In this document: in pieces, positions 42,311 through 43,460 of the stretch
How the letters are laid out: each line of letters starts with the position of its first letter
How positions within the stretch are numbered: the first letter of the stretch is position 1
Source of the DNA: Treponema sp.
Lineage (GTDB): Bacteria; Spirochaetota; Spirochaetia; Treponematales; Breznakiellaceae
Length of the DNA: 64,000 nucleotides
NCBI GenBank assembly: GCA_009781635.1
Contig: WQXU01000012.1
Span: 1 to 64,000, forward strand
Direction: 5' to 3'
Made by a program: the position numbers and the translations under genes
Notes under the pieces: model-generated
What the model saw: the letters and a program-made list of their open reading frames with translations, nothing else
Told to the model about the DNA's origin: nothing
The model's database searches: none

Positions 42311-42379
42311 AAACGGCTGCTCAAAAGAGATTCTTGTATATAAATAATAATCATTGTATGAAAAACAATACAGTTTAGG

Positions 42380-42466
42380 GTGATAAATATTCTTATCACT
42401 CTTGTGTAATTCGCTGTAATTCCTTATCCAGTAAGGAGTTACATGTAATTGTCATCTGGAATTACA
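42380..42466 (+). promoter_or_regulatory. Repeated TGTAATT elements upstream of the sigma-54 promoter
   Basis: GTGATAA/TTATCAC (42380-42399) forms an inverted repeat. TGTAATT occurs at 42405, 42415 and 42444, with the inverse AATTACA at 42460. GTAATTCCTTA (42416-42426) and TAAGGAGTTAC (42432-42442) form an 11-bp inverted repeat with one mismatch. Such clustered dyads upstream of a -24/-12 promoter are typical binding sites of an enhancer-binding activator, here placed close, 5-90 bases upstream. Confidence 0.55.
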
Positions 42467-42469
42467 AAC

Positions 42470-42486
42470 TTGGCACACATCTTGCT
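42470..42486 (+). promoter_or_regulatory. Sigma-54 (-24/-12) promoter
   Basis: TTGGCAC (42470-42476), five bases, then TTGCT (42482-42486) match the YTGGCACG-N4-TTGCW consensus at every conserved base with the required 10-base GG-to-GC phasing. It lies 54 bases before ATG 42540 of the sigma-factor gene. No sigma-70 promoter is evident here. Confidence 0.75.
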
Positions 42487-42539
42487 ATGTAATAAACAAC
42501 ATTTCCAGGTATGTTAACACTGGATGGGGAGGGGATTAT

Positions 42540-43391
42540 ATGCAAAAGAAGACAACAAGATCAAATGACAACCTGCTTGAAACATATTTCCGGCAGATTA
42601 AAGTATTTCCTCTCTTGTCATTTGAAGAAGAGCTGGAATTGTCAAAAAAAGCGCAGGCAGGAGATAACGATGCGCTTCATAAACTTGTAAACTCTAATTT
42701 GCGGCTCGTTGTTAAAATAGCAGGGTTATTTGAAGTCCCCGGTATTCCGCTTCTGGATATGATTCAGGAAGGAAATATCGGTTTGATTCATGCCGCCAAA
42801 AAATATGATTACCGCAAGAATGTGCGTTTTTGTACTTACGCAAGCTGGTGGATAAGGCAGTTTATCAGCAGGTTTATTGCTAACAGGCGGCGGCTTGTCC
42901 GTCTGCCTCAGCGTAAGGAAGAAACCCTGCGCAGAATACAGTATACGTATCATGTGCTTTGCCAGAGCCTTATGCATCAGCCGAAGAATTCCGATATTGC
43001 AAAAGAACTTGGTATTCCTGTAAAGGATGTTGATTCATTTGTAAGTATAGCGGCTGAGTCCATTTCTTATGATTATAATAATGCAGATGATGAGAGTGTG
43101 AGCGCTGTCGATATCCACGAGGATTATACTTATTGCCCGGAACGGAGCCTGCTGAAAAAAGCATCCAGCGACGGGACAATGAGACTGTTGGATAAATTAA
43201 AGGACAGGGAAAAGAGAATCTTAAGTTACCGTTATCAGCTAAATGGCTGTGAGCCACACACCTTAAGAGAAATCGGAGACAAGCTTGATATTTCACCGGA
43301 GACTGTCCGTCAGATTGAGCAGAAGGCATTAAGAAAAATTCGCAATCATGTAAAGGAACTGCGTGAGCTCATGTATGTAGAAGCCATCTAG
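42540..43391 (+). CDS. Alternative sigma-70-family factor (RpoD/RpoS-like)
   Basis: A 283-residue sigma factor without region 1.1. NLLETYFRQIKVFPLLSFEE is region 1.2; LDMIQEGNIGLIHAAKKYDY with FCTYASWWIRQFISRFIANR is region 2 (core- and -10-binding); VRLPQRKEETLRR and NSDIAKELGIPVKDVDSFVS is region 3; YRYQLNGCEPHTLREIGDKL with SPETVRQIEQKALRKIR is region 4.2. It is close to group-2 factors such as RpoS rather than ECF types. GGGAGGGG lies 5 bases before the ATG. A canonical sigma-54 promoter lies directly upstream. Spirochaete parallel: in Borrelia, RpoN with Rrp2 drives rpoS transcription; a similar cascade is inferred here. Confidence 0.92.
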   Translation: MQKKTTRSNDNLLETYFRQIKVFPLLSFEEELELSKKAQAGDNDALHKLVNSNLRLVVKIAGLFEVPGIPLLDMIQEGNIGLIHAAKKYDYRKNVRFCTYASWWIRQFISRFIANRRRLVRLPQRKEETLRRIQYTYHVLCQSLMHQPKNSDIAKELGIPVKDVDSFVSIAAESISYDYNNADDESVSAVDIHEDYTYCPERSLLKKASSDGTMRLLDKLKDREKRILSYRYQLNGCEPHTLREIGDKLDISPETVRQIEQKALRKIRNHVKELRELMYVEAI

Positions 43392-43460
43392 TGTCCTGTA
43401 TTATTCGGATAACAGATAATATTTCGGTTTTGGCTACTCCCAAAATTTGGTAATAAACTC

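Follow-up and report, generated by a model that had tools for sequence, protein, structure and literature searches.

Sigma factor gene and its promoter

The window, the whole 64,000-nucleotide stretch of DNA analysed here, carries a gene for an alternative sigma-70-family factor, preceded by a sigma-54 promoter and several upstream repeats (Table 1). The product is 283 amino acids long and contains sigma regions 1.2, 2, 3 and 4. Region 1.1 is absent, in agreement with a preliminary description of this DNA, which had read the gene as encoding an RpoD/RpoS-like factor lacking that region. The −24/−12 site has the sequence TTGGCAC-N5-TTGCT, retains the GG-N10-GC arrangement, and is separated from the ATG of the sigma gene by 53 nt. 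No other site in the window matches TTGGCAYN5TTGCW perfectly. The 2.77-Mb genome holds nine perfect matches in all, three of which fall within genes; this and the other genome-wide scans were carried out as pattern searches. The exact phasing that had been claimed for the site is borne out by the perfect match. No sigma-70-like promoter was found on the + strand between 42380 and 42540, and transcription is expected to start near 42497, as predicted from the position of the −24/−12 site.

Table 1. Positions of the features at the sigma factor locus and of the genes for the candidate activator pair
Feature	Position	Strand	Remarks
GTAT-N8-ATAC dyad GTATGAAAAACAATAC, candidate enhancer (UAS)	42356-42371	.	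conserved position; about 112-114 nt 5' of −24
TGTAATT x4	42405, 42415, 42444, 42460 (span 42405-42466)	+, +, +, −	present here, mostly absent in orthologous promoters
25-bp dyad TAATTCCTTAT-N3-GTAAGGAGTTA	42417-42441	.	52-53 nt upstream of −24; conserved in genus
Sigma-54 −24/−12 promoter TTGGCACACATCTTGCT	42470-42486	+	perfect consensus match, conserved upstream of orthologues
Alternative sigma-70-family factor, clade of Borrelia RpoS	42540-43391	+	domain content, trees
CTAGTGTCCTGTATTATTCGG, end-like fragment of dispersed palindromic repeat	43389-43409	+	overlaps sigma stop codon
EBP2 response regulator	L101:5272-6648		contig C9; best activator candidate
EBP2-adjacent kinase with HAMP domain	L101:3498-5216		contig C9

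Conservation of the promoter across spirochaetes

Sigma genes for comparison came from the same genus, from further families of its order and from elsewhere in the phylum. A site was scored when GG and GC were fixed, at least 10 of the 12 consensus positions matched, and the site lay within 160 nt of the start. Such a site is present in 96 of the 100 upstream regions scored, a few of which are duplicates, and in 1.0% of dinucleotide-shuffled upstream DNA. The shuffles replaced a null built from other ORFs in the collected loci, which was discarded: the loci overlap and had been picked around sigma-54 sites, so that this null was contaminated. By family, the site precedes sigma orthologues in 21 of the 23 spirochaete families examined. 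As a positive control, the promoter set includes four genomes that are presumed Borreliaceae, judged by the position of rpoS; sigma-54 dependence of the rpoS promoter was already known in that family. Borrelia's own rpoS promoter is among those recovered.

Relationship to Borrelia RpoS

Spirochaete sigma factors, including Borrelia RpoS, form a single clade, with a support of 98 when outside sigma factors are omitted and 100/98 when they are included, E. coli RpoS then falling outside. A tree constrained to pair the RpoS proteins of Borrelia and E. coli is rejected (p-AU 0.01). Borrelia lies on a long branch in these trees, deep nodes are weak, and relationships within the clade are only partly resolved. 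The window's sigma factor thus appears to be an orthologue of Borrelia RpoS, and because it groups with that protein rather than with E. coli RpoS, the cascade looks homologous to the RpoN–RpoS cascade of Borrelia. The preliminary description had proposed an equivalent sigma-54-to-sigma-70 cascade; the shared clade and the recovery of the Borrelia promoter support this proposal and take it beyond mere equivalence.

With gammaproteobacterial RpoS, the factor shares a group 2 sigma-70 architecture, and the RpoS model of that class is its best NCBIfam match. However, the match scores 225.1 bits, below the cut-off of 378.7, and E. coli RpoS is excluded from the spirochaete clade, as noted above. 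Whether BB0771 is truly an RpoS has been called into question, and there is disagreement over where Borrelia RpoS came from (PMC6719511); the placement of Borrelia RpoS among sigma-54-driven spirochaete sigma factors bears on this debate.

A conserved GTAT-N8-ATAC dyad

The most widely conserved upstream element is a GTAT-N8-ATAC dyad, which lies just outside the interval covered by the preliminary description and was missed there. Measured from the first base of −24, it is located at −108 to −114 in nearly all congeners. Most of them match it there at eight of eight positions, with a shuffle fraction of 0–0.005 in most. In many other families the dyad lies at −98 to −100, about −110 or −122, positions that are roughly whole helical turns apart. 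A pattern search for the dyad followed by a promoter 80–110 nt further on matched 32 of 60 relatives, and the reversed control matched none. Borrelia and most of the Treponemataceae examined have the sigma-54 promoter but not the dyad.

Where the genes downstream of this unit were read, they encode either the sigma factor or a membrane protein of 204–222 amino acids, and several genomes have two such loci. At the membrane-protein promoter, the spacing from dyad to promoter is about ten bases (about one helical turn) longer than at the sigma gene. The membrane-protein gene gave no significant match to a Pfam or NCBIfam family; a weak match to CTP_transf_1 (E 0.97) does not count as evidence.

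RpoN and candidate activators

The preliminary description had made the cascade depend on rpoN and activator genes being present in the genome, and both are. A single protein carries the AID, CBD and DBD domains of RpoN, and three AAA+ sigma-54 activators are encoded as well: EBP1 (contig C32), EBP2 (C9) and EBP3 (C22). EBP1 and EBP2 are response regulators with an adjoining kinase, which for EBP1 is a soluble PAS kinase, and EBP3 has a GAF domain. Orthologues of EBP2 group in a clade (100/100) apart from EBP1, and a YPSNLHAKIKK-like recognition helix occurs in those of most families with the GTAT dyad. The EBP1 clade (100/95) takes in Borrelia Rrp2, activators of Treponemataceae, and the activator of a T. 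pallidum-like genome (G046). EBP2 was not found in the Borrelia, Treponemataceae and T. pallidum-like G046 genomes examined.

The EBP2 kinase/response-regulator pair on C9 is the likeliest activator of the sigma gene. The association between EBP2 and the dyad (15/7/4/13; Fisher p 0.0095) is not significant after correction for the tree, with three to four independent pairs, because there are too few independent changes. Families f9, f17, f24, f30, f23, f37, f40 and f46 have EBP2 with a weak or absent dyad, and L277, a sequence from the Treponemataceae, matches the dyad at 7/8 positions and has no EBP2. Three genomes (G047, G050 and G280) carry the dyad with no EBP2 found, a search for the recognition helix giving weak matches only. 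Given these genomes and the small number of independent changes, the assignment to EBP2 is considered likely.

The features of the locus are probably best explained by a sigma-54 promoter that EBP2 opens from the GTAT dyad to produce an RpoS-type sigma factor, the unit being homologous to that of Borrelia. RNA polymerase with sigma-54 (RpoN) would wait in a closed complex at the −24/−12 site. EBP2 would be phosphorylated by the adjoining HAMP kinase, and the AAA+ activator at the dyad, most likely EBP2, would loop over to open the promoter, leading to synthesis of the sigma factor. The same enhancer–promoter unit would drive one further gene, that of the small membrane protein. This arrangement resembles NtrC-type sigma-54 promoters in its −24/−12 site, its helically phased upstream dyad, and its REC–AAA+–Fis activator with an adjoining kinase. 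It differs from them in the sequence of the dyad and in its target, a sigma factor gene, and the enhancer here is a candidate.

A second sigma branch and a possible role of EBP1

A paralogous sigma gene, sigma2, is located at G000:C7:54782-55600 (−) (L312) and has a sigma-54 promoter, ATGGCACGATTCTTGCT, upstream. Orthologues of sigma2 in several families likewise have sigma-54 sites. In the window's genome, dyads of the GTRTCATTTTGAYAC type are common to the sigma2 promoter and an hsp20 promoter (C18, L120), and this pattern suggests that EBP1 may be the activator of sigma2.

EBP1 might instead act on the first sigma gene, with some other protein at the GTAT dyad and the cascade otherwise as described. 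In Borrelia it is the EBP1 orthologue Rrp2 that activates rpoS (PMC1976401), EBP1-type activators are common to Treponemataceae, Borrelia and the window's genus, and the three genomes with a dyad and no EBP2 are in keeping with this reading. However, EBP1 is also present in G046, Borrelia and Treponemataceae, lineages of which most lack the dyad, and the different dyad at the sigma2 and hsp20 promoters would suit EBP1. A role for EBP1 at the first sigma gene is therefore considered unlikely, and EBP2 is preferred.

Other upstream repeats

The second dyad of the promoter region spans 25 bp and has the consensus form TAATTCCTTAT-N3-RTAAGGAATTA. The 11-bp dyad (TAATTCCTTAT/GTAAGGAGTTA) reported in the preliminary description was recovered as the core of a 19-nt, 79% dyad; like the promoter, it is clearly more than chance would produce. 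A search of the genome found roughly a dozen sites for the 25-bp dyad (control 0). Many of them form the centre of a dispersed palindromic repeat, and the idea that the dyad marks the sigma-54 regulon was rejected for this reason.

This dyad could in principle be the activator site, in which case the GTAT dyad would serve either a repressor or the divergent gene. When 31 promoters from the genus were aligned on −24, every one had it at −50 to −53, and in several genomes it recurs, alongside the GTAT dyad, at the membrane-protein promoter. On the other hand, none was seen outside the genus among the relatives' promoters examined, whereas the GTAT dyad persists there and is kept in L032 even though the upstream gene differs. 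Most of the other genomic copies of the 25-bp dyad also lie away from sigma-54 sites. An activator acting through it is accordingly improbable, and the GTAT dyad is retained as the candidate enhancer.

The four TGTAATT copies of the preliminary description, one of them inverted, are present within 62 bp, and one forms part of an arm of the 25-bp dyad. Since most orthologous promoters have no copy at all, the repeats were rejected as an activator site; the TGTAATT-binding activator proposed earlier is very improbable, and GTAT-N8-ATAC appears to be the better enhancer candidate. A GTGATAA dyad, also described earlier, is present in the window and was seen in none of the orthologous promoters.

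Evolutionary interpretation

The locus shares with the Rrp2–RpoN–RpoS cascade of Borrelia burgdorferi a sigma-54 promoter directly before an RpoS-type gene and sigma factors of one clade, and the window's genome also has an Rrp2 orthologue, EBP1. It differs in two features not detected in Borrelia, the conserved upstream dyad and the EBP2/kinase pair, and in the second sigma-54-driven sigma gene. Rrp2, the only EBP of Borrelia (PMC11109971), is reported to need no enhancer for the activation of rpoS and not to bind the 238 bp upstream (PMC1976401). The absence of EBP2 and the GTAT dyad from Borrelia and most Treponemataceae, with the sigma-54 promoter kept, would fit this reported enhancer independence.

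On balance, we lean towards a history in which a sigma-54-driven RpoS-type factor was ancestral to most spirochaetes and was first switched by a dedicated pair of sensor kinase and activator at a GTAT-N8-ATAC enhancer. Borrelia and Treponemataceae would have lost both activator and site and been left with enhancer-independent, Rrp2-type control, while a second, paralogous branch from sigma-54 to a sigma factor, with an enhancer of its own, ran in parallel. We know of no explanation for why Rrp2 needs no enhancer; the loss of an ancestral activator together with its site would offer a testable one. A literature search, with subscription journals mostly outside its coverage, found no paper describing the cascade outside Borrelia.

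Additional sigma-54 sites and dispersed repeats

Near-identical sigma-54 promoters are found at L117 (C10:42060), L118 (C11:739) and L105 (C23:922). Two of the genes that follow have sulfatase-modifying-factor-like products and one has a lipoprotein-like product. A CT microsatellite lies directly after each of these promoters, between the −12 element and the gene, and may be phase-variable.

The dispersed palindromic repeat is ~110 bp long, with ends AGTGTCCTGT/ACAGGACACT and a centre resembling the 25-bp dyad described above. It occurs at L105:2181, L106:2411, L107:812, L112:2137, L113:1971 and L115:1816, in addition to the end fragment in the window. Both dyad types lie close together at L104:3448-3523, between dnaA-like and gyrB-like genes, and at L109:2166-2249, upstream of an RNase Y-like gene.
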